Assembly: GCA_021234155.1 (NCBI GenBank)
Contig: JAJEKV010000041.1
Coordinates: 11,914,689 to 11,978,688 of the forward strand
Reading direction: 5' to 3'
Length of the DNA: 64,000 nucleotides
DNA from: Isoetes taiwanensis
Taxonomy: Eukaryota; Streptophyta; Lycopodiopsida; Isoetales; Isoetaceae
Part shown: piece by piece, positions 1,587-49,920 of the stretch
Layout of the letters: the number at the start of each line of letters is the position of its first letter
Numbering within the stretch: the first letter of the stretch is position 1
Translations under genes and position numbers: made by a program
The notes under the pieces: generated by a model
The model's input: the letters and a program-made list of their open reading frames with translations, nothing else
What the model was told of the DNA's origin: nothing
Database searches by the model: none

Positions 1587-1635
1587 TGGTCTTGAGTGAA
1601 CTGGACTAACAAACAGCTGTTGAAGCGCCTGGGTC

Positions 1636-3590: not shown

Positions 3591-3695
3591 GTTTGGGCAA
3601 ATTTTAGGTCAAATTCTAAGTTTATCATTTCCATGTGTCAAAGCACCTATTAGCCTAAAACATGTGCTTTCTTTAGAGTTTTCTAATTAAATTTA

Positions 3696-3758
3696 CTCAT
3701 GATGTGTGCTGGGGGCCTGATCTAATATTTAGATGAAGGCTCTGGCGCATATCGTGAG
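3696..3758 (-). promoter_or_regulatory. Long hairpin, histone-ORF-proximal, element 1
   Basis: 63-bp palindrome of the same family, with arms CTCATGATGTGTGC and GCGCATATCGTGAG around an inner TCTAATATTTAGA core. It is slightly more diverged than its partner at 3908. Confidence 0.65.
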
Positions 3759-3907
3759 CATTTTTGCATTTTAGACTAAATTATATGATTTCTAGGCATA
3801 TTTCTAGGGGTCTGAGATACAAATCTAACTAATTCTTATCTTAAAACTCGATCTAGCGTATTATCTTGTTAAAATTCATCAAGTTTCAAGGTGATTATGG
3901 CCAGTTA

Positions 3908-3970
3908 CTCATGGTGTGCGCCAGGGGCTCAACCTAACATTTAGGTTGGTGCTCAGGCGCATACCGTGAG
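3908..3970 (-). promoter_or_regulatory. Long hairpin, histone-ORF-distal, element 1
   Basis: 63-bp palindrome with arms CTCATGGTGTGCGCC and GGCGCATACCGTGAG and an inner AACCTAACATTTAGGTT core. It lies between the primer-binding site and the histone-like frame. Confidence 0.7.
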
Positions 3971-4163
3971 CATTTTCTGCATTTAGTGAAATTTCAGTTC
4001 AACTTTTTAGTTTTCTTGGTTTTCAATTCTTCTAACTGTTGCTAGCTTAGCATAAGCTACAAAAAATGAGAAAAAAAATTTCCCACTTTTTCGAGGTTTG
4101 AGAATTCTACTTAGTACTACTGGGAGCATGGCCAGTGCTTTGCTCTTGGTCTCCAAGAACATT

Positions 4164-4175
4164 GCTTTGATACCA
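4164..4175 (-). other. Primer-binding site (initiator Met tRNA type)
   Basis: Minus strand TGGTATCAAAGC, one base after the LTR end, matches the common plant retrotransposon primer site TGGTATCAGAGC at 11 of 12 positions. It fixes the orientation of element 1 and the LTR boundary. Confidence 0.85.
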
Positions 4176-4176
4176 C

Positions 4177-5740
4177 TGTGATGTCCCCTACTCGTATACG
4201 GTGCACTCACCGTATACAAACAGGAGTTCATCCCCCATACCAGCTCCATGCTGATACAAAGCCCTCCACGTGTCACTGCAACCTTGATGAGTTCCAGTGG
4301 GAAGAATGAAGGGGTCATTTTACCCTGTCTCCCTTCAGGGCCTACCTAGCTGCGGAAGCGTAAACATACATGTCAGTATACAACATCAACATCACATGAC
4401 CATCACGAGGGATGGCTCACCACATATCTGCATAGACCAGGATCAGTACATCACATACGGAGATCCTACCCAAGGCTCAGACTCAAAGGGGATGACTGGA
4501 CGCTTGGGGCCTCCGTAAGTCATTGCAGGCGTAATTCATGGCAATGGATTTGGCTGGCATAAGAACATAGCTTAAGGTAGTCCACTCCATCCGCCCCCCT
4601 CCCTGCACACTTTGCGAGTAGTAGGTTGAAAAGTGTTAAGGACGACCAGAGCCGGGTGCATAGGCTATTCCTGGGTTGCATCTCCCAACCCCGATAGAGG
4701 GGGGTAGGGATCACTCCCACCAGAGGCTAGCATGTTGGTTCAAGGTGACTAGAGGGCCACCGCCTGCATCTCTACTTGAACTCCATGGAAGGTGTATCGC
4801 CCACCACCTCAAGAGTGTCGAACCCATGCAAAGCCCAAGACGCTAAAGGGGTAGCATTAGGTCTAGTGCAATCGTAGTCCCCGATAGGCTTTACTACCGT
4901 GAGGGACGTGGTCATGAATCGGGACATGAACCTCCTTGTAAGCCAGTCTGGCCCCTTCACCCACAACCAGGTGTGGTTCTTGTACACAGGCCGAATTTAA
5001 TAGTGCATTAAAGAGGGCTAGCTAGGAGCATCATACTACTAGGCTTTTAAGGTCTCTACCCCCCTTCCCAATACAATGAGTCCACAGAGATCATCATCAC
5101 ATACATATCATAGAAGAACTAAAGAATAAGATTTAATCTAAATCACAGAGTTAGGTTCTTTAGTTATGGCTTGATATCTAGAGGTCTAAATAGCTGCTAT
5201 GGGCAAATCAATAGGCTAAACCTACTTACTCTATGTCTGGGAGGTGGTTTAGACTATTGAATTGGCAAAATACCTAATCTCTGGCTTGCTCCTCCTGCTC
5301 GGAACGCATCCATGCTGTAGAACTGCTTGAAGATGAAGCTAGAAAGGGAAGCTGATGAGCTAGCTGATCAGACAGACTTCAAAAGTCGAGATTGGCTCTT
5401 GGAGCAAGCAAAACGGAGTTCTAGAAGGTTGTGGACGAAAATGGAAAGTTAGGGTTCCTATGCCTTATATAGACTATAAGTTAGGGATGGGCTTCCATTA
5501 TCCCTTGAGCATGTGGGATAAATGGGTATGGCCCACTTGCCTTTATTAATTAAGTGACTAAGGTGTACACATGGATAAATGTGTACACATGAATAAATGT
5601 GCACACACTTGCAAGTTGCCCCCTAGGGTGCTACTTGCTTGGCTACACGCTTCCGTGCACGCCAACGGATGGCGGTAATGCGGCGTGGACGGCAAAGACG
5701 AAGATACGCCCGGGACCGTGATAATGGCCGGAACGTCACA
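4177..5740 (-). repeat. 5' LTR of element 1
   Basis: 1564 bp bounded by TGTGACGTTCC (5740) and GGGGACATCACA (4177), a TG...CA inverted end pair. It is homologous along its length to the LTRs at 23857 and 35372. The downstream part includes the block around GGAGACCCAAGCC/GCCTTGGGTAGGATC and the repeated GTATACGGTGAGTGCACCG just before the end. Confidence 0.85.
5463..5471 (-). promoter_or_regulatory. Possible LTR promoter TATA box
   Basis: Minus strand TATATAAGG about 270 bp inside the 5' LTR, followed by GCATAGGAACCCTAAC. It is the clearest TATA-like element in the LTR. In the 3' LTR the matching place reads ACATAAGGCA, so it is weakened there. Confidence 0.4.
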
Positions 5741-9839: not shown

Positions 9840-10625
9840 ACAAGGATCCATCATGCCACTTGATTGGCTCCAACATGCCACCTAGGCTCCAATATGCCAA
9901 GGTGGCTCAAACATGCCACGTGGGATTCACCATGCCACCTAGGCTCCAACATGCCATGTGGGCTCCAACATGCCAAGGTGTCTCAAACATCCCACCTAGG
10001 CTCTGAAATGCCAAGGTGGCTCCAGCATGCCGAGGTGGCTAAAACATGCCATGTGGGATCCAACATGCTACCTACGCTCTAACATGCCAAGGTGGCTCAA
10101 ACATGCCAAGATGGCCCTAAGGGCCAGATTCCACATGTGAGAGAAGTTTGTGTAAAACCACAATTTTTCCTTTCGGGTGATTCCACAAACAAAAGTCGCA
10201 GCTTATCAAATTTGTTGTGTGTCATAGATCTATGGGGATGCTGAGGACGTGGTGGAAATCCCGCAGCTGCTAGTTAAGCATTTTGAAAAGGTCGGGGCTT
10301 AAACATGCCACCCAGGCTTTGAAATGCCAAGGTGGACCAAACATGCCATGTGGGCTCCAACATGCCACCTAGGCTCCAACATGCCAAGGTGGCTCAAATA
10401 TGCTAGGTGGTTGAAACATGCCACGTGGGCTCCAATATGCCACCTCGGTTCAAACATGCCAAGGTGGCTCAAACATGCCACGCGGGCTCCAACACGCCAA
10501 GGTGGCTCAAACATGCCACCTAGGCTCCAACATGCCACCTAGGCTCCAACATGTCAAGGTGGCTCAGGCATGCCACCTAGGCACCAATATGCCACCTAGG
10601 CCATCTAGGCACTCCAAATGGTGAC
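9840..10625 (+). repeat. 19-bp satellite, left arm
   Basis: Alternating 19-bp units of the type AACATGCCACCTAGGCTCC and AACATGCCAAGGTGGCTCA. A unique insert occupies about 10115-10300. Because three units equal 57 bp, every frame through the array stays open for a while and gives a 19-residue repeated peptide, which is not evidence of a gene. Confidence 0.85.
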
Positions 10626-10639
10626 ATGGCATGCCAAGT

Positions 10640-13225
10640 AAGCAAGGCCAAGTTTTGACTAGGCTAAAAATGAAAAGATGTCCATATTTGGTCTTTTCAT
10701 TGGGTGATGTTGGCAAATGTTGGGTGACATGGCTAGATGGTGATGATGTGGATATGATGACTAGGACTTTATGCAAGAACTATGATAACCTTTGGAATTT
10801 TTGTGGAGCCCGAGGTTTGGCAAAGGGATAAAATAGAGGATCTTGAAGGACAAAGCGACACCCTTCCCCAAATCAACCGGGCGGGGACTGCACTTCCTCA
10901 CGGAGGGGAGGCCACACCCCATGAGACAGACCTCGAGAAGGTTGTCGATCGTTTCCCTGCCGGTGTCCCTGGGGCGCAAATACCAATAACCCCCTCCCAA
11001 AGCTGGTTTCCCTATCCAACCATTGAATCTTGGTTCAAGTGCACCTTGGCAGCGGGTTCAAAAAATCAAAGAATCCATCCGATGGAACTTATCAAGCCAG
11101 GTAAAGCGTCTTGCGGTCGGCAAGTGTAGAAACCATGTGTTTTGTTGTTGAGGCCGATTACAAAGGCTCAGGAATGGAGATCGACTTAAGCCATATCGTC
11201 GAAATAGAAATACCCTAGGGATTAAAGTTACCGCGGTCATTTTTTAGCAATGAAAGAAACATGAACCCTCTACGCTGGCAGTATTCTACAGCCACCTCTT
11301 TGCCAATTGATTCTGACGTGTTGGACATGAGCTATTTTGGCTTCTTGGGAAGGGTGGTCTCTTGCCCGCAAAAGCAGTCTCGAAGTGTGTATCATCGTTT
11401 TGAGTCCATTGGCGTCAATTCCAATTAGAATTAGGAGAGTTGCCGTCCATTGGCCAGGGTAGCCTTTAGGAAGGACCTTTGGGGCTTGAATAGGAAGGTT
11501 TGGAGTCCATCTTCGGCTCAACACCCCTCCCTCTATATGATGACATTACGCAAGATCCTGACCGAATCGACTAGGATATGGCCTCCAAAGCGTAAACCAC
11601 ATGTATTGTTGCTAGGTTATTGAAGGGTTCGCGTTATGGAGGTCCAAGTTTTAATCGGTTGCATTTGGGACATGGTCAGGCGCGATTAAGCGTAAACAAT
11701 AAGGCCCGGCGGCAGAATGGGGTTTGGGTTTATCCTAACAAAGTGTGGCAATTGGAAGTCAAAATCCTTTGCGATAGCAAAATTGTTTGGGATCATTCGG
11801 GATGGCCAATGATCCAAACTCTATTATTCCGGTTGCTATGGCTCCAAATGCATGTCTAGAAAAGGTGCACCTAGTTATCCAGGAAAACGACCATGTTTTG
11901 GCCTCCGAAATGTAAACCCTACAATAACCTAGCAACACACAGCGTTTATGTTTCGGAGGCCAAAACGTGGTCGTTTTCTTGAAAAACTAGGTGCACCTTT
12001 TTCTAAACATGCATTAGGAGCCATGGCAACTAAAATAACAAAGTTTGGATCTATTGGCCATCCCGAATGATCCCAAACAATTTTGCTACTGCAAAAGGTG
12101 CTCTTGACTTCTAATTGCCACACTGGGAGGAAGATAAATCCAAATCCCATTCCCTCAGTTCCTATTGCTTGGCGTTTTCAACTGCAGCTTCTGGACCATG
12201 TCCCAAATGCAACCGACTAAAACTCGGCCTCCATAACGTAAACCCTTCAATAACCTAGCAACACACAGGGTTTACATTTTGGAGGCCATATCCTAGTCAG
12301 ATTCGATCAGGATCTTGCAGAATATCATCATATAGAGGGAGGGTGTTGATGCCAGAAGATGGACCCTTAAAACCTTTCGGAAGCAGTTTGCCCCAAAGGT
12401 CCTCTCGTGAAGGCCCCTGGCCACGGACGGGCAACTCTCCCACTCCGAAATTGTTAATTGACTCTGCCAATGGACTCAAAACGATGACATTACCCTAGGG
12501 ACCAACTTTCGTGGGCAGTAGACCACCCCTTCTCCAAGAAGCGCCAAAATAGCTCATGTCCAACACGTTCGTAGTCAATTGGCCAAAGAGGTGGCTGCAG
12601 AATATTGCCATGTAGAGGGTTCGTGTTTCTTTCATTGCTAAAAATGACCGTGTAACTTAATCCCTAGGACAATTTCGCCATTCCGGACGACATGCGAAGT
12701 CGAATCTCCATTCCGGAGCCTTTGTACTGCCCGAACAACAAAACACTTGGGTTTCTACACGGTCGACCGTAAGACGCTTCGTGGTTTGAATGGATCTTGG
12801 ATTTTTTTGAGCCTGCTCGAAGTGATGGATTCAACGGTCGGATTGGAAAATTGAGCTCCCGGAGGGGGGAGGAATTGGCATTTGCCCTCCCAGAGGAGCA
12901 CTGATAGGAAAGGCTGCCTCGACAACCTTTCTGAGGTCCATCTCCTGGGGTCTGGCCTCTCCCCTCTGGTGAGAAAGCTGCGCAAAGTCCTGGCCTAGTT
13001 CGATTTGGGGAAGGGTGTCAGCGCTTTAAGTTCTCCAAGATCCCTCTATTCTATCCCTTGCCAAACTTCTATACAAAAATTTCAAAGGTTATCACCTAGT
13101 CATCATACCCATGTCATCATCATCTAGCCATGTCACCTAAAATTTGCCAACATCACTCAATGAAAAGACCAAAGATAGACATCTTTTCATTTTTGGCCTA
13201 GTCAAATGTTGACCTTGCTTACTTG
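10640..13225. other. Inner arms and loop of the fold-back, no recognised gene
   Basis: Two inverted ~1.3-kb sections meeting near 11925. Frames such as 11620-11859 (plus) and 11929-12150 (minus) mirror each other because of the inversion. I see no family match. Confidence 0.5.
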
Positions 13226-13227
13226 GC

Positions 13228-14857
13228 ATGCCATATCACCACTTGGGTGCCTAGGTGGCATGCGTGAGCCACCTTGGCATGTTGGAGCCTAGATCGCATG
13301 TTGGAGCCACCTTGGCATGTTTGAGCCTAGGTGGCATGTTGGAGCCCACGTGGCATTATGGAGTCCACGTGGCATGTTTGAGCCACCTTGGCATGTTGGA
13401 GCCTAGGTGGCATGTTTGAGCCTACCTTGGCATGTTTGAGCCACCTGGCATGTTTGAGCCTAGGTGGCATGTTGGAGCCTAGGTGGCATGTTTGAGCCAC
13501 CTTGGCATGTTTGAGCCTAGGTGGCACGTTGGAGCCACCTTGGCATGTTGGAGCCTAGGTGGCATGTTGGAGCCCACGTGGCATATTTGAGCCACCTTGG
13601 CAAGTTGGAGCATAGGTGGCATCTGGAGGAGCGCGTGGCATGTTTGAGCACGTTGGAGCCTAGGTGGCATGTTTGAGCCACCTTGGCATGTTGGAGCCCA
13701 CATGGCATGTTGGAGCCTATGTGACATGTTAGAGCCCATGTGGCATGTTTGAGCCACCTTGGCATGTTGGAGCCTAGGTGGCATGTTGGAGCCCACGTGG
13801 CATGTTTGAGCCACCTTGGCATGTTAGAGCCACTGTGGCATGTTAGAGCCACTGTGGCATGTTGGAGCCTAGGTGGCATGTTTGAGCCAACTTGGCATAT
13901 TTAAGCCTAGGTGGCATGTTATGAGCCACCTTGGCATGTTGGAGCCTAGGTGGCATGGTGGAGCCCACGTGGCATGTTTGAGCCACCTTGGCATGTTGGA
14001 ACCTAGGTGGCATGTTGGAGCCTAGGTGAAATGTTTGAGCCCACCTTGGCATGTTTGAGCCCACCTTGGCATGTTTGAGCCACCTGACATGTTTGAGCCT
14101 AGGTGGCATGTTGGAGCCACCTTCGCATGTTGGAGCCTAAGTGAGCTTGCATGGCATGTTTGAGCCTAGGTGGCATGTTTAGGAATGTTGGAGCCTAGGT
14201 GGCATGTTTGAGCCCACGCGGCATATTTGAGCCACCTTGGCAAGTTGGAGCATAGGTGGCATGTTGGAGCCCGCGTGGCATGTTTGAGCAAGTTGGAGCC
14301 TAGGTGGCATGTTTGAGCTATTTTGTCATGTTGGAGCCTAGGTGGCATGTTGGAGCCACCTTGGCATGTTTGAGCCTAGGTGGCATGTTAGAGCCACCTT
14401 GACATGTTGGAGACCACATGGCATGTTGGAGCCTAGGTGGCATGTTGGAGCCCACGTGGCATGTTTGAGCCACATTGGCATGTTTGAGCCTAGGTGGCAT
14501 GTTGGAGCCACCTTGGCATGTTGGAGCCTAACTGAGCCTGCATGGCATGTTTGAGCCTAGGTGGCATGTTTGAGCCACCTAGGAATGTTGGAGCCTAGGT
14601 GGCATGTTTGAGCCCACGTGGCATATTTGAGCCACCTTGGCAAGTTGGAGCAAAGGTGGCATGTTGGAGCCCGTGTGGCATGTTTGAGCACGTTGGAGCC
14701 TAGGTGGCATGTTTGAGCCATTTTGTCATGTTGGCACCTAGGTGGCATGTTTGAGCCACCTTGGCATGTTTGAGCCTAGGTGGCATGTTGGAGCCACCTT
14801 CGCATGTGGGAGCCACCTTGGTATGTTTGAGTCTAGGTGGCATGTTTGAGCCACCTT
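13228..14857 (-). repeat. 19-bp satellite, right arm
   Basis: About 80 units of TGGCATGTTGGAGCCTAGG and TGGCATGTTTGAGCCACCT, the reverse complement of the left-arm satellite. Higher-order segments repeat, for example the block with GCATATTTGAGCC near 13580, 14222 and 14625. It ends abruptly at the CACTA terminus. Confidence 0.9.
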
Positions 14858-20340: not shown

Positions 20341-20697
20341 ATGATATTTAGATGGATTACAAGGAAGGAGATACCGACAAATGAAATTTGGACATGCTTA
20401 ACTAAGGTCGTTGAGGCATGTTGTATGCTAGAGAAAGAATTCCCAACAAGTTTTCTGGACATACAAACTCACTTACTAGTGCATTTAGTGGACGAAGTAG
20501 AGCTTGCAGGCACAACAAATCCTAGATGGATGTTTTTTATAGAACGCTTTCTGAAGGTCCTCAAGAACTTCAGACGCAAGGAAGGCAAGGCCGAGGGTTG
20601 CATGGCCGAGGGTTGGTTAGCACGAGAGTCATTATTCTATGTCACCGAAGTTCTTGGCCGATCTACACCCCAATGCTCCACGATTATGGACCGATGA
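20341..20697 (+). pseudogene. CACTA transposase, DUF4218-like domain
   Basis: A 118-codon open segment with CMLEKEFPTSFLDIQTHLLV, HLVDEVELAGTTNPRWMFF and IERFLKVLKNFRRKEGKAEG, closely following the DUF4218 pattern (LExxFPPSFFDxxxHLxxHLxxExxxxGPVxxRWMYPxERxxxxLKxxVxNKAxxEGSIAEGY). It follows directly on the Transposase_21-like segment, and the frame starts where an intron-like TTTCTTTCTTAA tract ends. Confidence 0.85.
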
Positions 20698-23856: not shown

Positions 23857-25392
23857 TGTGGACGCTCCAAAGACAAGATACGCCTCCCAAGACGTACATT
23901 GTACCGCCACGCCACGCGCAGAGACGCCACCTCATTGACGGTAATGCCAACCGATAGTTGTGTAAGTAGCCCTAGGGGGCAACTTGCTAGAGTGTTCATA
24001 TATTATTAATGTGCACATGTGCACATTAATGAGGGCACACCTTTCCATGTTGGCATATTTTGCCACCTAGCCATTTAAGGCAGGCCCTTTCCAATTATCC
24101 CACATGCCAAATTGGATAATTGGAAACCCTAGCCTAAACCCCATGTCTATTTAGGGTAGGAAAACCCCTAGCTTGCTAGTTTTTCGCCCTTAGGGTTTTA
24201 GAGAGCTTTTGGCTGCCCCAGAGCCAAAACCGCCTCCCACCGCAAGTTTAATTGCACCATCGGCTCCCCACCGCCGCCAAAGCCAGGATGGTTGAACTGT
24301 GTCGAGGAGCCACTCAAGGATCAGAGTTTGGTCAATTTAATAGCTTAAACCGCCTTCTAATCATAGAATCAAGAGGTTTAGACTATTAAATTGCCCATAG
24401 CAGCTATCTAGATCTTAGATCTTGGACACTAACCAAAGAACCTAACTCTATGATTAGATCTAGTTCTTTAGTTCTTCCGTGATGTATTGGGTTGATGTAT
24501 CTCTGCGGAACTTCTTGTATTGGGAAGGGGGTAGAGGCCCTAAAGCTTGTAGTTGATGCTCCTAGAGTAGCCTCTAGCACACCTGAGATTCGCCTGGTAC
24601 AAGAGCCACACCGTTGTGGGTGAAGGGGCCGACTGGCTAAGAAGGAGGTCCATGTCCCCGACTCTTGAACGATCCCCCGTGTGTAAAGCCTACCGGGGAT
24701 CATTGTGACTAGGTCTAATGGCTTACCACCGAAAGTGCGGGTAAGGCATGGGCTCGACACCCGTGAAGTGGTGTACACTTTCCGCTGGGTTCAGTCGAAC
24801 ACGGCAAAGTGGCCCTCTAGTCACCTTGAGTTAGCATGTAGATCTCTGAGGGAGTGATCCCACCTGCCCCATCGAACCGGGAGGATGAGACCCAGAATAG
24901 CCCCTTGGCTATGCATCCGGCTGGCTACTGGGCCGTCCCGACACTTTTTCATCCTACTCGCAAAGTGTGCAATGGAGGGGCGGATGGAGTGGACAACCCT
25001 ATGCCATGTTCTTATGCCAGCCAACCCATTGCCATGAATTCGCCTCAGAACGAACTGGAGACCCAAGCCGCCGGGCCATCCTTTGAGTCTGAGCCTTGGG
25101 TAGGATCCCCTATGTGATGTGCTGATCTTTGTCTATGCAGATAAGAGGAGGACCATCCTTCGAGATGGTCACAGGATATTGATGTATGTGCTACTGACAT
25201 GTATGTTTACGCTTCCGCAGCTAGGTAGGCCCTGAGGGAGACGGGGTAGAATGACACCTTCACTCTTCCCACCGAGACCTCAAGCACAGGTGCAAAGGAT
25301 ATGTGGAGGGCCCTCAGACGATGGAGCTGGTGTGGGGAAGAACTCCGCTTGTATACGGTGAGTGCACCGATAATGCAGTAGGGGACGCCACG
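23857..25392 (+). repeat. 5' LTR of element 2
   Basis: Starts TGTGGACGCTCCAAAGAC and ends near GGGGACGCCACG; the family ends are TGTGGCGT and ACGCCACA. About 1536 bp. It is similar over most of its length to 35372-36780 and, more distantly, to the inverted LTR at 4177-5740. Confidence 0.85.
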
Positions 25393-25395
25393 TGC

Positions 25396-25407
25396 TGGGT
25401 ATCGAGC
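25396..25407 (+). other. Primer-binding site, mutated
   Basis: TGGGTATCGAGC lies just after the LTR end, where element 1 has TGGTATCAAAGC. It is a decayed initiator-Met tRNA primer site. Confidence 0.65.
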
Positions 25408-25596
25408 AATGTTCTTGGAGACCAAGAGCAAAGCACTGACCATGTTCCCAGTAGTACTAACTTGATAGGGTCCTCAAGCCTCGAAAAGTGGGAAAATTTT
25501 TTCTCACCTTTGTAGTTATGCTAAGCTAGTAACAATTAAGTGAATTGGAACTTAACAAGATTAAAAAGAATGAGCCAAAATTTTCTAAGTGAGGTG

Positions 25597-25663
25597 GTCT
25601 CACAGCTCGCGCCTGGTCGCAAAACTAACTTTTTGTTTTGAAGCGAGGCGCAAGCTATGAGAC
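25597..25663 (+). promoter_or_regulatory. Long hairpin 1, histone-ORF module, element 2
   Basis: Arms GTCTCACAGCTCGCGCCTGG and GAGGCGCAAGCTATGAGAC around CAAAACTAAC/GTTTTG. About 67 bp. Same architecture as the element 1 hairpins but different sequence, with arms co-varied to keep pairing. Confidence 0.7.
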
Positions 25664-25782
25664 ATCGAGTCAAGAACACCAAAACATGATGAATTTGAGA
25701 TAAATAATGTGGTAAGGCTAATTCTAAGGTAGGAATTAGTTAGAATAGCATGTTTTAATTACCTAAAAACCCTAGAAATATG

Positions 25783-25850
25783 AGGATTCATACCGCTACC
25801 GGGTCGCAAAACTAAACATTAGTATTGGAACGAGGCGCAAGCCAGGAGAC
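25783..25850 (+). promoter_or_regulatory. Long hairpin 2, histone-ORF module, element 2
   Basis: Decayed copy of the same hairpin: TACCGGGTCGCAAAACTAA on one side and GAACGAGGCGCAAGCCAGG on the other. The right arm is better kept than the left. Confidence 0.5.
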
Positions 25851-25953
25851 CAATAGGTAGAAAAGTCTCCGAAATAAGTATAAGTTTTAGATAAGTTGGT
25901 GCCTTAGCATGTTAAACGGAGCAACTTGAGTTTTGACCTAAAATTCCCCAAGC

Positions 25954-25961
25954 TATAAATA
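25954..25961 (+). promoter_or_regulatory. TATA box upstream of the histone-like ORF (element 2)
   Basis: TATAAATA, about 105 bp before the ATG at 26063. The leader contains AAACCGCCTCCCC, which also occurs in the leader before gag at about 27950. Confidence 0.6.
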
Positions 25962-26062
25962 GATGTAGAACCCCCTCATTTTTTCGCCCAAGCCCTAGAA
26001 ACCGCCTCCCCAACTTAGGCGACATCTTTCTACGCTTTTATCCGATTGACGATCCAGAAAAC

Positions 26063-27313
26063 ATGGCCCGAACCAAACAGATCAAGAAGGAAGCGCCGCC
26101 AGCCAGCGAAACCACCAGCCACCAGACAGAGATCATTCGGAAGATGCTTCGCGGAGAGGCTCGCAAGAGGGGGTCGCTCGCCTTCTGGACGAAGAGCAAG
26201 ACACCTCCGATTTGATCGATGTCTTCAACCGCCAGTGGAGGAGGACGAGGCCACATCACCAAACTCCATGGATCTAATTTAGACGAGGGAGGTGTATGAA
26301 GAAATAGAGCGGGAGATTCGCAGCAGAACAAGCGCACTATTCAGACGCACTCCACGGAGATCCTGGAACAGGATGAGCAAGTGATGTGTCCGAGCCCGGA
26401 GGTAGCGGACCTTAGAAGATTCATCGTGAAGTACGAAAATGGCAGAAGAGAAGGGAAGACAAAAAGAGGAAAAGGAAGGAAGAGGAACAAAGCGCAGCCA
26501 GAAGAAAAGAAGAAAGTTTAAAGGGAAGTTCGTGGTCGGGCGAAGGAGAACAAAGGACCGCCCGCCAAGGAAGAGGCCGAACCCCAACATTATTATCAAG
26601 GAGCTGCAACCCCGACGAACCCCAAACCCTTCCGACGACTCTTCCGATGAAGACTTCAACCATAACGCCGCAGGTGGAAGCTCTTCCAAGCACCAGCGAC
26701 GAGCGTGAAGTACCCGAGCAATGGCTAAGACTGAAAGCAACCCCACCAAGACCAAGTGCGTAAGCCCCCGAATACCCTCGCATGGGATAGAAAGAAGCAA
26801 CCACGACCGCCCCGGAAGCCTACGCCACCGGCTGTGGTGAAGATTTATGAGAGGAAGATGAGAGAGCACGAGGCCTACATGAAGAAATGGGAGGCCTATA
26901 ACAAATATTATGAAGAAAAACAGAGTTAAGTTCATCGAGGGAGGGCGACCAACGGCAAAGAAACCTTAAGGCCGCCACCACCAAAGCCCGTTGGTTCCCA
27001 AGCCGCCACCCGTGAAGAAAGCGGATAGGAAGGAGGTGGAGAGAAGAGCGTTAAGGGAGATTAGACACTTCCAAACAGCTTCGGTCTCCCCCCCGTGCCC
27101 CTTCGCCGGTTGGTGCGAAGTTATGCGTGCCTATAGAACAGACTTTAGAGTCACCTGACCCAGGCGGCCGCTGGCAATGCAAGAGGCGGCCGAGGCAAAA
27201 GATAGTGCAACATTTTGAAGATTCAACAGCCCGCACTATCCACTTAAAAGCTGGTAACCTTAATGCGACAAGACATGAGTCTTGCGACCCGCATTAAGGG
27301 AGAACGCCCTTAG
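26063..27313 (+). pseudogene. CENH3/H3-like histone with long inserted linker (element 2)
   Basis: Starts MARTKQIKKEAPP at 26063. Across frames it then shows a Lys/Arg-rich region (about 26440-26570), an acidic SDDSSDEDFN patch followed by GGSSSK (about 26625-26690), a HEAYMKKWEAYNKYY motif (26870-26910), and a histone fold from 27045: ALREIRHFQ, YRTDFR, MQEAAEA, HFEDS, IHLK, then MRQDMSLATRIKGERP and a stop at 27311. Canonical H3 ends MPKDIQLARRIRGERA, so homology through the C-terminus is direct. Total length (1251 bp) agrees with the element 1 copy (1231 bp), which shows the long linker belongs to the gene. Stops and frameshifts break it. It is separated from gag by a second promoter-like module. 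Confidence 0.87.
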
Positions 27314-27450
27314 AAACTTTTGTTGTAAATAATTAAAAATTTTGTAATATAGAGCAATTTTGTGTACCTTGATGACATAAACTTGAGTAATTAGAGCAAA
27401 TTAATAAGTTTTAGCTTTTATTTCAGTGAAATAGGACATTTGGGAGCCGA

Positions 27451-27520
27451 GAGACATGATGTTCATGCAAGGCCGTCAGGAAACAAAAGTTAGATTGAAG
27501 CGAGGCGCAAGTCGTGAGAC
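27451..27520 (+). promoter_or_regulatory. Long hairpin 3, gag module, element 2
   Basis: GAGACATGATGTTCATGC left side, partly decayed, paired with GAGGCGCAAGTCGTGAGAC on the right. It lies after the histone-like stop codon. Confidence 0.55.
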
Positions 27521-27652
27521 CTCGCCCAAACTTGACCAAAACAGCTCCAAATTGACCAAATAAGGGGTCGATTCTGCCTAATTTGATGAGCCCATCACCC
27601 TTACACCATTAGTTTACCCAAATTGGACACCTTTAATCGAAATGAGACTGAT

Positions 27653-27719
27653 GTCTCACAGCTCGCGCCTGGTCGCAAAACAAAAAGTTAGTTTTGAAGC
27701 GAGGCGCAAGCTGTGAGAC
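27653..27719 (+). promoter_or_regulatory. Long hairpin 4, gag module, element 2
   Basis: Arms GTCTCACAGCTCGCGCCTGG and GAGGCGCAAGCTGTGAGAC; nearly identical to hairpin 1 at 25597, although the two are 2 kb apart. This supports duplication or gene conversion of the module. Confidence 0.75.
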
Positions 27720-27912
27720 CTCCTACCAATTCTTCACCAGGACTTGTCAAAGTCACCTTCAACCTACTGCATAGCATCTTTTAGGTAATCTAGCCTTGTT
27801 CAAACATCTCATATAGTCCTCAAACTCCTATTTTGACCCCAGATAAGTTAGAATTACCCAATCCTAGGAAATTTTTCAAGTCATCCAAAAAAATTAGGGT
27901 TTCCCCCTTTTC

Positions 27913-27920
27913 TATAAATA
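27913..27920 (+). promoter_or_regulatory. TATA box upstream of gag (element 2)
   Basis: TATAAATA in the context TCTATAAATAGACCC, about 115 bp before the gag ATG at 28036, and followed by CAAACCGCCTCCCC as in the histone module. Confidence 0.6.
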
Positions 27921-28035
27921 GACCCGTCACTTCTCACATAGCACCCTACAAACCGCCTCCCCGCCCTTCTAGCCGATTTCCCAACTCCCCGAGGCGCCTT
28001 TGCAACCGCTTGTTACCCTCTTCCGCAATTAATCA

Positions 28036-30980
28036 ATGGCAACTTCGATTTCCGGAGATGGTACAAGCGCCATGCCATGTCGAGGTCGACGCTTCAACCA
28101 AATCTTCCATTTTTTCAGAAGGAGGTAGACGCCCAAGCAACCTTGCACGACTCCCAAATTTTATAGTAGAGTCTTGATCGAAGTTCCAAGCTAGGGTAGA
28201 ACCGCCGCTTAGTGCAACTCCCCTTGTGTAGGATATTTTGTTCCTAGACAGCCCCTAGGTAAAAGATTAGACGATGTCCCTAACATCGCCAAATACCTCA
28301 CAAACAAAGCGCGAATCAAGACACCGGAGCCAATGGTCCTAACTGCCAACAGACCAAGTACTTTCTTTCAACACGCCTCGGCAATCTTTCTCACCCACCG
28401 CGTCGAGAACATCGGGGGAAACTCTATTCCCCATGGACGGGATCCATTAGTCAGAAAGCAGAGAACAACAACGGCCCTCACACAAAGATGAACAGGAGCA
28501 TGAAGGAAGGAAGAAGACTCTGGATGAACAGGAACTGGAGGAGGAGGAAGACGATGTTGAACCGACCCGACAGAGGAGCAATGGGACAAGCAGAAGGGAG
28601 TGGCAAGACTTCAAAGAAGCCGCGCAGACTCTCGTGAAGTCGCCACCCCCAAGTTAGGCATCACAAGCCTAGCTCCCATTATAATCGGTGAGAGGAGTTT
28701 CTACTCCTGTTTACTATCAAAACCTCCCTGGAGTGCGTGGGGAAAGGAGTACCGACCAAGAGTTGCTGCACCAACCCCAAGAATCCGGGACTTGGACGAC
28801 TTCATCGTCCGAGGAGAGTCCGACTTTTCCCTCCAAGTAAGGGAAGCCGACACTTACACGGAGAGTTTACCTCCCACATCCAAGCCTACAAAGAACATCG
28901 CAGATCATGGAGGCGCATAAGGTCGAGAACAAGCTACCGACGAGGAAGAGTTCCTTGCTCTCCAGAACAGATGGGGATCCATTATGCGACTCAAACATCC
29001 TAACTAAAGCTCATCCGCACCTCCCCGATAGGACAGTAATTCTTCCTCTGAGGGCTTCAGCAAATGAGACTGACTGTGGAGCTCACCACCTGCGGGAGGT
29101 TGATGATTTTGGAAGCAGATACCCCGAGCTGGGATACCGAGTAGCCGAGGACCCATCTCGCAACGACAGGTCATTACGCTTATTACCGCCATTGTCGATG
29201 GATGGAAGAATAGCAAGTATCCACCGCAAGTTCACCCCCGTGAGGCTTTGGTGAAGGAGTATCGCTGCTGATTGCACTCTCAGATTCGCCGGGCATGCAC
29301 GGGCTACCCCTTTAACACCGAAAGTATGCAATCCTGGTGAAAAGAGCGGTAGCACTCGACGCCTTCGACTTCGGCCATACCTTACAAAGGGCGGCAGTAA
29401 GACTGCCGCGATGCTAGCTTTATACCCCCAACCGCAGAATAGAAGATTTAGCAAGAGCATTACTGTGGTGGATCTCCAGCCAATGTTCTTAGGAACTTGG
29501 GCCATTCAAAGGGAAAGCCCTCAAGTGAAAAAGTTCTTGGAGGATAATCCATCTTACCTAAGATCAACGTAAGTGATTAGCAGAGAGTTGCAAGTTCTTG
29601 TATTAGTGTAATATAAAATATAAATATAACATTCTCTTGCACTATAAATGTTTTGTTGATATATTTTGTGTCCCCTCAACCATGCCAACAAACATAAATA
29701 ATGCAAGAAAGCAAGGAAAACTAACCATGTAGATATGAACCACTTGTGTATGCAGCTAGAGGCCCGAAAGCCAGGAGAACGCATAACGGGAACTTGTTGG
29801 GGAACAGAGTCCGCCCAGGCCACGCCCGGCAAGGAACCCGCTTGAAGAGTTTGGACAAATGACTCCCGTAAGAAGAAATATCGCGAAATGAGGACAGACC
29901 TCTAACAGATAAAGGCCTTGCTAGCCGCACAAGGAGAGTGTCTTGGTAACGCTTAACCGCCGCGAAGCATCAGCTCTGAGAACAAGTAGAGACAAGAAGA
30001 GGAGTAAAGAGGAAGGTCCCCCAGTACCCGGACTCGGCTCCCGACCGAGCTCAGAATCCGACCGGGAGGAAGAAGAAGAGCGTAACCAAGTCCGAAAGGC
30101 ATTTAAAGGCGAGGAACCACCCGGAGGGACTTACAAAGGGACACAAGAACCCTCCACTACCGTAAGAAAGTAGACTCGATTGGGAAATGTTTGGAAGGCC
30201 AGAAGCTCGAAAGCAATTCTCAAAGCGAGAACAGGTCGCATGGAAGCAAGAGGCTTGGCTTGACGAGATGAATAAACACGGCAATGCCTATGGTATGAAG
30301 GATAAGGATAAAGGCGGTGGCAAACAAATAACCAAGGGAGCAAAGACGCATTTGGTGGAAGGGCTATGCCAAGGCTCATGGCTTAAGGTGGATGCTTTGG
30401 TGTTCAAGAAGTTTGCTAAAGCCTTCTGCCGCCCATTAATGCCCAAGAGAGCACAAGTCCAAGATGATGCAAAGAAGCTCTACAAAGTTAAAAGAAAGGC
30501 AACAAGTCAAGCATTTAAATACACCTGAGGAATTTATGAGGCTAAGGTCGATGTGCCAAAGTTAGGTGAGAAGCATGCAAGGAAAGCTACATTGAAGGTC
30601 CGAATGAGGAGATCCGAAGCTTGTAAGGGCAATAAACCCTAGAACAAGATCTAAGAGCGAGTCCAAGGCAATAAGTTTGCAAAGGAACAGACCTCGGAAT
30701 AAGGGCAGAGGCAGCAAAGATACTAAGATAAAGGCAAAGGCGAAAAAGTGCCAGTTTCAGCCCGAGAACAAACCCCAGACTGAGCCTAGAGCCCCATATA
30801 GTGGCAATCAAGGGAAGCAAGCAGGAGAAGAAGGTGTGTCCTTCAAAGACAAACAGAAGGGTCAAACTACTCCAAAGCAAAGGCGATCCTTTCCGCAGCC
30901 ATGCCCAAGGAGAAGAGACAAGAGTGCATAGAAAAGCGCCTTTGTTTTCGTGTTTCCAGCGGGCCATAGAACAAAGAACC
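28036..30980 (+). pseudogene. Gag of element 2
   Basis: Starts MATS with the next codons out of frame relative to element 1 gag; FRRWY and QKEVDAQATL match. Later blocks shared with element 1 are DVPNIAKYLTNK (28283 on), LGITSLAPIII (28655 on), DLDDFI and READTYTE (to 28870). Further on, VFKKFAKAFCRPLMPKRAQV (about 30390-30460) followed by an EEFMRLRSMCQ-like segment resembles the Retrotrans_gag core. A Lys/Arg/Gln-rich C-terminal region follows (30660-30930), typical of nucleocapsid. Many stops and frameshifts. Packages element RNA in the intact family. Confidence 0.75.
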
Positions 30981-31100
30981 TTCCATATGTCATGAGTGCA
31001 AAAGGCCAGCAGAGTTGGGAGATTGGGACACTTTGACCGACGACGACGGGCAGGAGGCCCACTACATCTGTGGTGAGTGTCATATCTTTGCCGCAATAGA
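30975..31100 (+). pseudogene. CxxC...CxxC zinc-binding-like motif at the gag-pol junction
   Basis: ICHECKRPAELGDWD followed about 20 residues later by YICGECH. Two CxxC pairs could bind zinc. It differs from the usual CCHC knuckle. It may be what remains of a nucleocapsid finger or an added motif. Confidence 0.4.
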
Positions 31101-31139
31101 TACAGAGCAAGCGAGAGAGCCAAGATAAAGTAATTTCCA

Positions 31140-31460
31140 TTAAGGGGAAAGGCCAAGGCCAAGTCATTTATAGTCCCGATAGATTCGGGAAGTAGCCATA
31201 ACTTTAGATCTCCCCATAATGGTTCAAATGTTGAAGTTGAAACCATTAAAGTCAAAACCAAGGCCCGCTGTCTTAGCAAGTGGAGCAGTAAGGCGTGACG
31301 GCGTGTAAAAGAATCAACTTTGACATCGACTTGCCGGGGATTAAGATCCGCATGGGGGCAGAAGTAATGGGCATTGGCAAATACGACTTGATAATAGGTA
31401 TGAGTACCTTGGACCAGCCAGGGCCATTATTGATTGTGGAAAGCGGAAGGTGACCTTCCC
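31140..31460 (+). pseudogene. Retroviral-type aspartic protease
   Basis: FIVPIDSGSSHNF with the catalytic Asp-Ser-Gly at 31182-31190, followed near 31380-31440 by a YDLIIGMSTLDQPGPLLI segment corresponding to the YDxILGMDWLxxH part of Ty3/gypsy proteases. It would cut the polyprotein. A frameshift separates the two parts. Confidence 0.8.
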
Positions 31461-31839
31461 AACACCGACGGCAAGATCATTCAGATAATGTGTAAAGAAG
31501 TTGTTCCCATCATGCGTTGTATGTCTTCTAAACGATCTGCCTCAAGTGCATCAAGAGTGAGCAAGCAGCATACATCTTCAAGCTTGAGATTAGTGAGCCG
31601 GAATTGGAAGGAAGCAAAGAAGACAAGATGCTCAAAAAGTTGCCGAGGCAAATAGCTAAGATTGATCACGGAGTTCCACCGATCTCTTTCCGTGATGAGA
31701 TCAAGCAGCTCCCTCCTATAGGGGAGTCGAGTCGTAGATAGCACCTAACCGGGAACAAAGCCAACAAGCAAAGGCTCCATATAGAATGACAACGCAGAGT
31801 TGTCGGAACCGAAGAAGTAGCTGTGTGGAGCCGCCGACC

Positions 31840-32420
31840 TAGGTTTCATTAGACCCAGTGTCTCGCCGCTTGTTTCCCATTCTTTTGTCAAGAAGAAAGA
31901 TGGATCTTTGAGGATGTGCATAGACTATAGGCGCTGAATAAGCACACCATTAAGAACAAGTATGCGCTTCCAAGATCGCACGCATTTGATGGATCAGCTT
32001 CAAGGAGCAAAGATCTTCTCCAAAATCGAATTTTAAGGTCGTTATCATCAGATAATGGATAAAGGAGGAGGATATCCACAAGACCGCCGACGGGACGACA
32101 TGGGCATTATGAGTTCACGCGATGCCTTTCGGCTTATCAAAACGCCCCGCAACGCTCATGAGGCTCATGAACGATATCTTGAGGGAGTTCCCGGACACCT
32201 TTGTGATTGTTTTCTTTTGATGACATTTTGGTGTATAGCAGATCCCTGAAGAGCACGCGGCAACACTTGAGAAGGGTGCTAGAGAAGTTGAAGAGGCACC
32301 AGTTATCTGCCAAGTTGTCGGGCGCCACTGCAACGTAAAAGGTGGAGTATCTGGTCATGTGATCTCGCAGAAGGCATCTCAACGCACCCCGCCAAGATTG
32401 AGGCAAGGATCCAAGGCCTA
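31840..32420 (+). pseudogene. Reverse transcriptase
   Basis: [18 protein letters not shown] (31885 on), LMDQLQGAKIFSKIE (31990 on), YHQI and a segment that reads as TRMPFGLxNAPATL across frames, then DDILVYSRSLK with the Asp pair at 32219-32224, then LRRVLEKLKRHQL. This is the Ty3/gypsy reverse transcriptase order. At least four frame changes. Confidence 0.85.
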
Positions 32421-33020
32421 CAAAAAAAAATGTGCACCAGGGAGAAGTTTTCTCGGTCTGAAGTGGTACTACGTGAAGTTCGTGAAGAACTTTGTTAAGA
32501 TAGCAGCCCCGCTTAACGTAATCTAACGAGGGCGTAGAAGGTGAAAGATTGGGTAGAGCATTGGCACAAGAAAGCCCAAAAGGGATTTGAATTGTTGAAG
32601 GAAGCTTTAACAACAGCCCCAGCCTTAACCCCTCGCCGACCCGAGAAAGATAAGCTTGTAGCAAATCAGCGCAGTAAGATAGCCACTGGCAAAGCGCTTA
32701 TGCAAGAAGAGCTGTGGTAGCATATGATTCGCAAAGATGAACGACGCCAGACGCTACCCAACGACGCATCAGGAATTGCTTGGGATGTCGGGGCATTAAG
32801 AATATGGAGGCACTATCTCTTGGGAAGGAAGTTCCAATTGATAACGGACCCATCGGGAGCCTCCAATATGTATTCACGCGAACCACACCTCAATGGAGGC
32901 AGCGAGATGGATGGAGTTCCTCGAAGAATATGACTTTGATATAGTCTAAGCCGGGGAAGCTCAATGTGGTAGCAGATGCTTCAAGGCATCCCCGACAACT
33001 AGAGTGCATTGCAGCGAATT
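32420..33020 (+). pseudogene. RT connection and RNase H region
   Basis: GFELLKEALTTAPALTPRRP (32580 on), RIWRHYLLGRKFQLITDPSG (32800 on; the WRHYLLGxxFxLxTDHxxL part of gypsy RNase H), and VVADASRHPR (32968 on; the ADALSR end). Frames broken. It would remove RNA from the RNA-DNA hybrid. Confidence 0.75.
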
Positions 33021-33199
33021 TCGACTCTCCAATGACTTTAATTGTAAGAGGATTGAAGAGTCCTTGCCAACGGATGTGGATTGTGGTGCATGGGTAAGCC
33101 TCTCTAGGAGGCTAGAACAGATAAAGAGCGGAGGCCTTCAAGCATTATAAGAAGGAAGGCAACTTTGCTATACCATAAGAACAAGTTGTGCGTGCACCG

Positions 33200-34090
33200 A
33201 ATCATCGGGTGTAAGGAAGTTGATCCTCCATGACGCTGCTATTAACCCCCAATAGCGCTGGCGGGATTCATGAAAAACATATTTCAAAAGTCGCGAGTAG
33301 TTATTATTGGCCAGGAATGAAGAAGCAAATAGCTCGCTACATCAAGGAATGGGCTTATGCCGCCAGAGGGCGTGAGCAACCGAATTCAGGGGCATTCAGA
33401 GCCATTAGCGATTGCCAAACGCTAAGTGGGAGGTCACTCGATGGATTTTATCCAGGACTCCCAAGAACGTGAGAACAGGATGCCTTAATGGTAGTGGTCG
33501 ACAGTTGTCGAAGATGGCATTTTGTGCCTTGCGGCACCTGCCGCTGACCATGGATCTGGAAAGCTCTTCACCAAAGAGATCTTCGGCATGCCAAGGGAGT
33601 TTTCATTCCCGACGGAGATCCGAAGTTCATGAGTGCCTTTTTGGCAAGACCTCTTTAAGTAACGATTGCACTGCTATCCATGAGCCGCAAGTATCATCCT
33701 CGCATCGGATGGCCGCAATTTGAAGCGACCAAGCAGGATCTTGTGAAGACATGGCAAACAAACTAGGTCCGAATAAGCAAAGTATGTGGGAAGAATTCTA
33801 TTCACTTGGTGGAGTTTTGCATACAATAGCACCAAAGCGGGAATCGGCCCCAAATGTCGCCATTTGCGATCAATTATGGCTATCGATTGCCGCTCCGTAT
33901 TAATTTGGCACAACCCGTGTCAAAAGTAGAAGTTTCGGGATGTTGGCCCGATGACATGCAGCTCGTAGAAGAAGTTCGAGGTTATCCGCTAGCAGCAAGA
34001 AGTCGTCGAAGAGCATCACGCCAAACAAGCATCGAACAGTCAGAGTTCAAAGTTGGAGATGATGTATGGCTCAAGATAAAGGTGAAGTAG
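33200..34090 (+). pseudogene. Integrase
   Basis: Read across frames: AGGIHEKHISK then YYWPGMKKQIARYIKEW (33255-33350; the HHCC region, where the two cysteines are lost), MDFIQDSQ near 33440, MVVVDS, WHFVPC, SGKLFTKEIFGMPREF, SDGDPKF-like and SAYHPRSDGRN-like segments, then PFAINYGYRLPLRI (33858 on) and EFKVGDDVWLKIK (34050 on, the GPY/F-side segment). It would insert cDNA into the genome. Confidence 0.8.
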
Positions 34091-34319
34091 GCAAAGCCGA
34101 GATTGGCAATTAAAGAAGCTTGCTCCAAGGTGGAGGCTGGACCCTTCGTAATAATCAAGAGTAGGTAATCAATCCTACAAAGTTGAATTTGCCAAACACA
34201 CCTAAAGATTCATAAGGTCTTCCACGAGTTTGTTGAAGAAGCATACCCAAATCCTTCGGTCTTGGACACTCCAACGCTATTGGAAATGCCGGAGGAAACA
34301 AAATGGGAAATAGTTCGCA

Positions 34320-34490
34320 ACTGATTCTTGATAAAGCTTTCAAGAAAACGAGGAGATGAAAATTCCCTCCAATACTTGGTCAAATGGAAACACTTGCCGC
34401 TGGAAGACGCCACGTGGGTACTTAAGAAAGATTTAGTGCAAAGCAGTACTCCACAATTTATGGAGCAATGGGGCCGGAAGGTCATCTCCC
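34320..34490 (+). pseudogene. Integrase C-terminal chromodomain
   Basis: GDENSLQYLVKWKHLPLEDATWV, split here as LQYLVKWKHLP and EDATWV, followed by FMEQWG. The YLVKWxxxPxxxATWE core is the chromodomain hallmark of chromoviruses. Chromodomains commonly bind methylated H3 tails and steer integration to heterochromatin. The preceding part (34230-34320) contains EEAYPNPSVLDTPTLLEMPE-like linker sequence. Confidence 0.85.
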
Positions 34491-34519
34491 AAGAAATCGC
34501 TCAGGCATGTCGATTTGCG

Positions 34520-35360
34520 AGGTTAATTCTTGTATAGATTAATCCCACGATGCAACCTATGCTTGGTATGGGTCGCATGCGTTGTTGTCGATGATGAGAC
34601 CACTACGGTGATCTCTAGGGCGTGGTGTAATGTCAATGTAGGCATGACCGACCGTTCCTCAGGCGAGTGGAAGGTAGATTAGAAAGTCTATCTGGCCCCA
34701 CCGGAAGGAGACTACCGAGGAGAAAAGAGGTCATTAAGGAATGCATTGATAGGGAAAGCACCTTTAGCCCCATATATGCTTTGATAGGGAGGGAATCCAT
34801 CCTTTCACGCCCCCACGCCAGGTAGAAGGATATCCTCCACGTTGAGCAACTAGAGGTGTAGGTATGAGTGGCATATAGGCATATGGCTGCCTCCACGGCC
34901 ATTATGGAAGATTCATCCTCTTCCTACTGGAGATTAGCCATGCACTCATGTAGATAGGTGGGTGGTCACCATATAACCAAAAATTTTAATTAATAATTAA
35001 TGGGTACTAACGTAATGCGTAATTCTGCAGCCGAGAAAGGCCAGGGAGGGCAAGGAGGTCGAACTCAAGACTTGCAACACAAATTTTGTTGGAATGTGTT
35101 GCAAGGAATCAAGGGTACCTCGAGCGTTAATTTTAAATTTTGATAAACTTAATAGTAATGTTAAGGGAATGTTGGAGTAATGGGTTAGTAATATTGTGAA
35201 TTGACAAGCTATTTTATAATATAATAATGTGATAAAAGTATTACCTTAAGGTAACGTAATAAGCATGTAAGTGTTATAGTAGTATATTATACATCGTCGA
35301 CAGTGTGTTAGGTAAACCCCAAGGTGGGGAGAACCGATGTCACACAGCATCATTTCAAAG
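34520..35360 (+). other. 3' untranslated region of element 2
   Basis: No frame of note. The last part is AT-rich. It lies between the chromodomain and the polypurine tract. Confidence 0.5.
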
Positions 35361-35371
35361 TGTGGGGAGAA
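35360..35371 (+). other. Polypurine tract
   Basis: GTGTGGGGAGAA immediately before the 3' LTR start, where plus-strand synthesis would begin. Confidence 0.7.
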
Positions 35372-36780
35372 TGTGGCGTTCCAAAGACAATTATCGCTCC
35401 AAAGGCGTACATTATACTGCCACGTAATGCCACCCCATTGACGATATGCATGGATAGCAGGGTAAGTAGCCCTGGGGGCAACTTGCTAGAGTGTTCATAT
35501 ATTATTAATGTGCACATGTGCAATACTAATGAGGGCACACCTTCCATGTTGGCATATTTTGGCCACCTAGCCATTTAAAAGCAAAGTAACTTTCCAATTA
35601 TCCCACATGCCAAATTGATAATTGGAAACCCTAGCCTAAACCCTATGTCTATTTAGGGTAGGAAACCCTAGCTTGCTAGTTTTTCTCGGCCCCTAGGGTT
35701 TTTAGAGTTTCAGTTTGGCTGCCCCAGAGCCAAAACCGCCCCGCGTGACGCCTGCTTAATTGCACCATCGCCTCTCAATTCGCCACCAAATAGATGGTTG
35801 AACTCAGTCGAGGAGCCACTCAAGGATCAGTATTTGGTCAATTTAATAGCTTAAACCGCCTTTCTAATCATAGAATCAGAGGTTTAGACTATTAAATTGC
35901 CCATAAGCCATTCAGATCTTAGATCTCGGACACTAACCAAAGAACCTAACTCTATGATTAGATCTAGTTCTTTAGTTCTTCCTGTGATGTACTGGGTTGA
36001 TGCAGTCTCGCGGAACTTTGTATTGGGAAGGGGGTGGGAGCCCCAAAAGCTTGTAGTTGCCCTAGAGTAGCCTCTAGCACACCGCAGACCGGCCTGCGTA
36101 CAAGAGCCACACCGTTGTAGGTGAAGGGCCGACCGGGCTAAGAAGGAGGTCCATGTCCCGACTTTGAACGATCCTCGTGTGTAAAGCCTAACCTGGACTG
36201 CCAGGACTAGGTCTAAATGGCTTACCACCGAAAGGTAAGGCATGGGCTCGACACCTGGAAGTGGTACACACCTCCGCTGGGTTCACCGAACACGGGCAAA
36301 GGGCCCCAGCACCTTGAGCAAAGGGCTGTAGATCTCGTGGAGGGAGTGATCCCTACCTGCCTCCCCATCGGAACCGGGAGGATGAGAGAGACTCAGGAAT
36401 AGCCCCTCTGGGCCATGCATCCGGCGGGCTACACAGTCCCGACACTTTTCAGCCCACTGCAAAGTGTGCATGTGAGGGGCGGATGGAGTGGATAACCTTT
36501 ATGCTATGTTCTTATGCCACCCAACTCCATTGCCAAGTGAATTTCGTCTGCAACGACTGGAGACCCAAGCCGCTACCATCCCTTTGAGTCTCGAGCCTTG
36601 GGTAGGATCCCTATGTGATGTGTCGTATCTTTGTCTGGCAGAGCAGAGGAGGACCATCCTTCGAGATGGTCATGATATTGATGTATAAGCAAATGACATG
36701 AAGTGCTTACGCTCAGCCAGGTAGGCCTCGAGGGAGATTAGGTAAATGACACCTTCACTCTTCCCACCGAGACTCAAGCA
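35372..36780 (+). repeat. 3' LTR of element 2, truncated
   Basis: Starts TGTGGCGTTCCAAAGAC and matches the 5' LTR up to CTCAAGCA at 36780 (25286 in the 5' LTR). About 106 bp expected at the end are missing. Many small indels separate the two LTRs, so insertion is not recent. Confidence 0.85.

Positions 36781-46259: not shown

Positions 46260-49920
<3,661 letters not shown>

Follow-up and report, generated by a model that had tools for sequence, protein, structure and literature searches.

A chromodomain-bearing Ty3/gypsy retrotransposon lineage in Isoetes taiwanensis encodes a histone H3 variant as its own conserved gene

Plant Ty3/gypsy chromoviruses include the CRM, Tekay, Galadriel and Reina clades. 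The Isoetes elements described here resemble them in their TG..CA LTR ends, 5-bp target duplication and tRNA-Met-type primer site, and in a gag-PR-RT-RNase H-INT order with a chromodomain near the integrase C-terminus. They differ in adding one or two ORFs before gag, the first of which encodes histone H3, and in LTR matches of ~1.3-1.7 kb. An extra ORF between the 5′ LTR and gag is also a feature of Ogre and its relatives; to our knowledge, none of the Ogre-type accessory ORFs is a histone.

Histone genes have been described in other mobile or selfish genomes. Dothideomycete hAT DNA transposons are reported to have captured histone H3, with tens of potentially active H3 copies in Pyrenophora tritici-repentis and captured copies inactivated by RIP in P. 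fijiensis (PMC6710886). Such capture or amplification of H3 by fungal transposons is the closest precedent among the papers listed by our literature searches. In both cases H3 copies multiply with a mobile element, but the fungal elements are DNA transposons, whereas those of Isoetes are retroelements in which H3 is under purifying selection and carries added domains. Giant viruses and Medusavirus are likewise reported to be selfish genomes that encode core histones (PMC9145170, PMC11500106); these, however, are large DNA viruses with several histones, whereas the Isoetes element has a single H3 and would borrow H4, H2A and H2B from its host. Across the titles and abstract openings listed by searches of open-access literature, a set that lies apart from subscription papers and preprints, we found no retroelement with a histone gene, and the word ‘histone’ is absent from the main text of both the I. 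taiwanensis (PMC8566536) and the I. sinensis (PMC10541799) genome papers.

Two decayed H3-encoding elements in one window

The window, a 64,000-nucleotide stretch of the I. taiwanensis assembly, contains element A at about 23859-36780 on the plus strand, a long-decayed LTR retrotransposon in which reverse transcriptase, integrase and a chromodomain are recognizable. The original prediction had read a complete H3-type fold in a frame within this region, at 26063-27313. The H3 motifs are present in the DNA there, scattered across three forward frames, and the element A frame starts with MARTKQ, the canonical H3 N-terminal tip, which the original prediction had not noted, followed by a charged linker and the H3 fold. 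In a frameshift-aware alignment with plant H3, positions 26901-27400 scored 162, compared with 30-38 for 10 shuffles, and 54 of 118 aligned residues were identical across 8 frameshifts. The original observation is confirmed. An intact H3 from elsewhere in the genome (L029) also detected this degraded ORF by tblastn (E 5.5e-12 and 9.9e-12).

The surrounding features, all on the plus strand, are those of a retroelement. The 5′ LTR (23859-25392) and the 3′ LTR (35374-36780) share 83.7% identity in an alignment of 1478 columns; the ends of both are approximate, those of the 5′ LTR being taken from the LTR alignment and comparison with relatives. We looked for a target duplication around this LTR pair and did not find one. 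A degenerate primer-binding site at 25397-25408, recognized by eye, was placed by its position relative to TGGTATCAGAGC (L011, L017 and L024) and TGGTATCAAAGC (L047), which adjoin the LTRs of relatives, where the site is of tRNA-Met type. TATAAATA lies at 25954-25961, 109 bases 5′ of the H3 start codon, and this spacing recurs in all three class I copies with upstream sequence (element A, element B and the intact L029). A second internal TATAAATA, at 27913-27920, precedes ORF2 by 123 bases, the corresponding distance being 120 bases in L048 and 57 in element B. Repeat modules (GTCTCACAGCTCGCGCC...GGCGCAAGCTGTGAGAC) lie 5′ of both of these internal TATA boxes, at 25597-25666, 25784-25853, 27495-27543 and 27653-27722; they are apparently self-folding and perhaps regulatory.

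H3 had been placed between the LTR and gag. The region directly downstream, however, is a degraded second accessory ORF (ORF2, 28036 to about 29572), found by tblastn with the ORF2 of L048 (E 2e-33 over 28096-28977, with a further piece at 29165-29239). The stretch 28036-29572 is not gag; gag similarity begins only at about 30214. The remaining regions are broken: gag and protease at 30214-31791, with an approximate start (tblastn E 2.8e-19 with the L011 gag-PR-RT, from query residue 149); reverse transcriptase at 31749-32353 (tblastn E 6e-32; one piece matches RVT_1 in Pfam at E 0.0013, under the curated cut-off); RNase H at 32446-32894 (tblastn with L011, E 3.8e-27 over 32520-32894); and integrase at 33224-34090, with approximate ends (Integrase_H2C2, E 1.2e-5; tblastn of the region, E 1.7e-60 over 32714-34507). 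A chromodomain follows at 34343-34471 (PF00385, E 1.1e-8).

A second, diverged member with the same H3 gene occupies the minus strand of window positions 1-5300 (element B). Its H3 ORF (2251-3481) is broken but better kept, starting MARTKQTAR and matching L029 by tblastn at E 2.4e-97. TATAAATA occurs at 3583-3590, upstream of H3, and again at 1636-1643, upstream of ORF2. ORF2 (485-1586) is 86% identical to that of L048 over 317 columns, with a further tblastn piece; the similarity stops at 485, and the element continues toward the window start. The LTR and leader (3824-5294) are homologous to those of element A at 71-75%, and one ORF2 stretch is 66% identical between the two elements. The frameshift-aware score of element B against H3 was 186 (29-45 for 10 shuffles); two CENH3s scored 172 and 209, the shuffle range being that for H3. 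The profile search for PF00125 was mixed: two short typed pieces of element A gave no histone in Pfam, and two pieces of element B matched at E 1.4e-7 and 6.3e-4, the latter below the Pfam curated cut-off. A protein search with the element B read-through returned 29 matches at E up to 1, all with a histone domain and covering at most 29% of the query, and no relative of its tail and linker was among them. Over 79 codons of the fold, elements A and B differ at 0.54 of third and 0.35 of second positions, a contrast that would be weak evidence of constraint, as the segments were picked by similarity and are partly out of frame. The shuffles and the second copy together rule out a chance or over-read frame.

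Elsewhere in the window, tandem-repeat arrays at 9843-10601 and 13246-14857 are inverted copies that end an inverted-repeat stretch (10296-13593), and two near-identical simple-repeat blocks lie at 48781-48924 and 49558-49672. An open frame at 20341-20697 (+) may resemble the plant CACTA-associated DUF4218. An Rfam scan of the window returned nothing.

Intact relatives and two classes of element H3

The assembly containing the window comprises 1,658,258,908 bases (1.66 Gb) in 1110 contigs. A PF00125 search of it started from 8705 first-look candidates, a loose number that is not a copy count, and the best 150 were scored. Among these best 150 matches, 15 were canonical H3 genes (profile matched from position 2, E ≤1.9e-45) and 135 were non-canonical, starting at profile position 4 or later. 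We read 20 of the 135 in 10-kb slices, picked for long histone frames, and infer from them that the 135 belong to one class, which we call class II; because the 20 loci were chosen as H3-bearing, they bear on the H3-positive side of family membership. A separate genome search with the tail and linker of element B gave at least 171 matches; 132 of its 9929 candidates were scored. We fetched 14 of these class I loci, mainly ones whose listed frames had no internal stop.

The two classes encode different H3 proteins. Class I, to which both window copies belong, combines the canonical ARTKQT tip, a long, K/E-rich linker, which sets the tail tip ~290 aa apart from the fold, and a CENH3-leaning fold; 12 of 14 loci are open through the fold, 10 of them also with an ATG. 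In class II, a ~230-aa N-terminal domain (beginning MPRFKLT.., MExxKQV.. or MANTK..) and a linker precede a near-canonical fold, and the ORF is open from its ATG over 411-459 aa in all 20 loci. PF00125 matched each of the four class II ORFs submitted (E 1.9e-43 for L011, 4.5e-42 for L016, 2.6e-41 for L026 and 2.1e-40 for L019). Profiles of the two classes align to each other at E 2.8e-24, in the fold only. A protein search with one class II ORF gave 4458 matches, and the 120 listed cover at most 43% of the query, in the H3 part only; relatives of the N-terminal domain may rank lower. The AlphaFold model of the class II fold region, built on a shallow alignment of 20 sequences, is of low confidence, and Foldseek searches of PDB and viral libraries gave nothing at E ≤0.001.

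The gene order of element A recurs around these intact genes. Similarity to ORF2 lies 3′ of H3 on the same strand at 19 of 20 class II loci (all but L011, where we found no ORF2), and similarity to gag-PR-RT follows downstream, on the same strand and within the slice, at 18 of 20 (all but L012 and L023). ORF2 is common to both classes, as the ORF2 of L048 finds L026. It is open over at least 400 aa in 8 of 20 class II loci, and the 8 aligned class II open frames encode 433-483 aa. ORF2 lies at 3506-4837 in L017, 3379-4773 in L024 and 7970-9337 in L048. The class II ORF2 proteins had no significant match in Pfam or PDB, and the ORF2 structure model has a pLDDT of 38.6. The gag-PR-RT-RNase H-INT order appears both in L011 (by Pfam) and in element A (by tblastn): in L011 the H3 ORF is followed by Ty3_capsid, RVP_2 and RVT_1, then by RNase H, H2C2, rve and a chromodomain (E 6.1e-8), with a single in-frame stop separating RT from RNase H. 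The class I member L029 has an open H3 ORF and an open ORF2 but a broken gag-pol, as the remaining forward frames of its downstream piece are all 272 aa or shorter.

Of the 5 elements checked for paired LTRs, 4 have them, with identities of 93.4% (L011), 96.5% (L017), 90.7% (L024) and 91.3% (L029, class I), and not in L010, whose far end was fetched. Target duplications of 5 bp flank L011 (CAATC) and L017 (GTGGC); those of L024 and L029 could not be made out. In L011, L017 and L024, the tRNA-Met-type primer site lies directly 3′ of the 5′ LTR. An internal TATA before H3 is consistent in class I and inconsistent in class II, where 7 of 20 loci have any within 300 bases 5′ of H3, at scattered positions, and 13 of 20 have one within 320 bases past the H3 stop, against a chance expectation of about 0.12 per 300 bases. 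Scanning L003 for tRNAs returned nothing.

A chromodomain-bearing Ty3/gypsy LTR lineage therefore encodes an H3 variant as its own conserved gene, before ORF2 and gag-pol, and elements A and B in the window are decayed class I members of it. The original prediction of a retrotransposon-encoded H3 is borne out by both window copies and by the intact relatives found across the assembly. A single host-gene insertion is ruled out, as the two diverged copies and the intact relatives have the gene at the same place.

Selection on element H3 and its relation to CENH3

We estimated dN/dS by the NG86 method as the median over usable pairs (median dS 0.6-1.2). L026, L030 and L042 were left out, as were pairs whose dS was saturated or very low; because copies were picked for open frames, the values are lowered somewhat. 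The class I fold gave 0.062 (39 of 66 pairs, range 0.02-0.62, with one pair at 0.62) and its N-part 0.191 (63 of 66 pairs). For class II, the values were 0.039 (66 of 66 pairs) for the fold and 0.123 (52 of 66) for the N-part of the MPRFK type, and 0.018 and 0.143 for those of the MExxK type (21 of 21 pairs each). For comparison, the value was 0.129 for ORF2 (13 of 28 pairs) and that for gag-PR-RT was 0.068 (3 of 3 pairs, from 3 sequences). As constraint on the fold is about that on gag-PR-RT at this divergence, element H3 looks like a selected gene and not cargo. Intact relatives appear to keep H3 about as faithfully as their replication enzymes and, judged from their sequences, to be elements that make their own chromatin protein. 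That this is an element H3 under selection we regard as nearly certain.

These values bear on two other accounts of the gene. A host H3 might have been amplified passively as cargo, as in the fungal hAT elements that provide a precedent (PMC6710886). We give this almost no credence, and reject passive cargo because independent copies show dN/dS far below 1; moreover, two diverged classes share the same gene order and carry added conserved domains. Alternatively, the plant may use some copies as H3 variants, with selection reflecting host use, a reading that the many open frames could be taken to favor (at least 400 aa in 36 of the 150 scored PF00125 matches). We consider host use very unlikely, since the constraint extends across dispersed copies and is accompanied by likewise constrained ORF2 and gag-pol, as expected of an element gene.

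The fold had also been said to bear CENH3-type signatures. This is correct in part for class I, which like plant CENH3 (HTR12) has EIRHFQ, LLIP and VTLM(K/T)KD. To place both classes, we built a tree from 89 columns with 12 class I and 20 class II rows, with P0073 dropped and host CENH3 not included. Each class is monophyletic (100/100 for class I and 100/98 for class II). Class I groups with 9 CENH3-labelled rows (92/93), and with the 8 angiosperm-type ones at 86/67, whereas class II falls with canonical H3. Some of the CENH3 labels come from sequence alone, and two rows so labelled (P0079 and P0080) fall on the H3 side, which limits the resolution of the tree. Pairwise scores differ between the two window copies: the element A fold scored 156 with canonical H3 and 145 with the best CENH3, and the element B fold 179 and 190. 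A search with the latter scored 53 candidates, all with E below 1e-6, of which 27 were named centromeric, CENH3 or CENP-A; the candidates were pre-picked by shared words, which favors CENH3-named matches. By eye, the longer loop 1 with tryptophan of plant CENH3s is absent from class I (EFDSSMRVTGEMLLALQ compared with FSHDVNRWTAEALVALQ); its loop 1 is as short as in canonical H3. Because this loop length and tryptophan are missing, we do not file class I as CENH3. It differs from plant CENH3 further in its ~290-aa linker and in that most copies end IKGER or IKGEP/IKGDP.

The CENH3-side position of class I, together with the chromodomain, would suit a role in targeting, in which element H3 marks chosen chromatin (centromeric for class I) and the chromodomain or the N-terminal extension tethers integration there. 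Class I matches are also clustered, with 24 pairs within 1 Mb (~10 expected) and 9 within 0.1 Mb (1 expected). However, the 130 class I places are spread over 72 contigs, and the 135 non-canonical matches, spread over 70 contigs, form 18 pairs within 1 Mb (~11 expected) and 1 within 0.1 Mb (1 expected); these counts cover the best-scoring matches listed and refer to contig positions. The spread over 70-72 contigs argues against a centromere-restricted distribution, including one of CRM type. Integration targeting is the main rival to the explanation that we prefer, and we hold it to be unlikely, though less so than the other alternatives. Three class I H3 matches lie in 40 kb at C952:16024272-16063181 (G000), as part of the class I clustering.

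Nucleosome contacts, tail sites and a possible anti-silencing role

All 20 class II copies keep R49, R52, K56, R69, R72, K79, R83, H113, K115, R116, T118, K122, D123, R128 and R129, positions that we take to be nucleosome contacts. All 20 differ at E105, and 12 of them at K64. Class I departs at nucleosome positions too, with K79, R128 and R129 not kept and R63 replaced by P in 12 of 12. As the 15 contact positions are kept throughout class II, we think that element H3 probably enters nucleosomes. The same conservation speaks against a role limited to packaging, in which the charged linker and histone fold would condense element RNA or DNA apart from host nucleosomes: the long, K/E-rich linkers of class I and the weak zinc-knuckle matches of the gags scanned would fit such a role, but simple binding would hardly require these 15 positions, and a gag with a capsid domain is present. 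We regard packaging as improbable.

The tails differ from those of canonical H3 at the sites of repressive marks. ARKS is missing from the K9 and K27 sites of every class II tail; L026 and L038 carry the motif at another point of the linker. Of 13 readable class I tails, 10 retain the K4-bearing ARTKQT tip and 6 retain K9, which the other 7 have lost, and none has S10; both window tails (ARTKQIKKE in element A and ARTKQTARI in element B) are without K9. The plant CENH3s compared also mostly lack K9, and the loss in class I is not universal, so it need not be adaptive. Nevertheless, the absence (class II) or partial loss (class I) of the K9 and K27 contexts favors nucleosomes resistant to repressive marking.

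We propose that element H3 would enter the nucleus, pair with host H4 and join nucleosomes through its kept fold, with the N-terminal extension presumably serving as an adaptor. Most likely, it would be loaded on the element's new DNA or on active element chromatin, giving nucleosomes that host silencing cannot mark, and this H3-variant chromatin may be read by the element's own chromodomain or pair with it. An anti-silencing role as such we put forward tentatively. The best explanation overall, a selected element H3 that forms silencing-resistant nucleosomes, seems to us about evenly balanced between right and wrong on these comparisons. More broadly, it is conceivable, at somewhat less than even likelihood, that this is a lineage with a self-made nucleosome, in which an H3 variant, in CENH3-leaning and near-canonical forms, with new effector regions and largely without repressive methylation sites, is deposited to control the chromatin of the element's own DNA or of its integration sites.

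Host chromatin controls transposons, and an element with its own H3 would be a transposon acting on the opposite side of that contest. The elements would also offer a natural experiment for finding the H3 residues on which silencing machinery depends, with many nucleosome contacts kept and the K9 and K27 contexts gone or decaying. They may have a bearing on the evolution of CENH3, and gene annotation of I. taiwanensis could take their frames for host histones. If the proposal is true, the Isoetes elements would represent a self-made epigenetic identity of a transposon.
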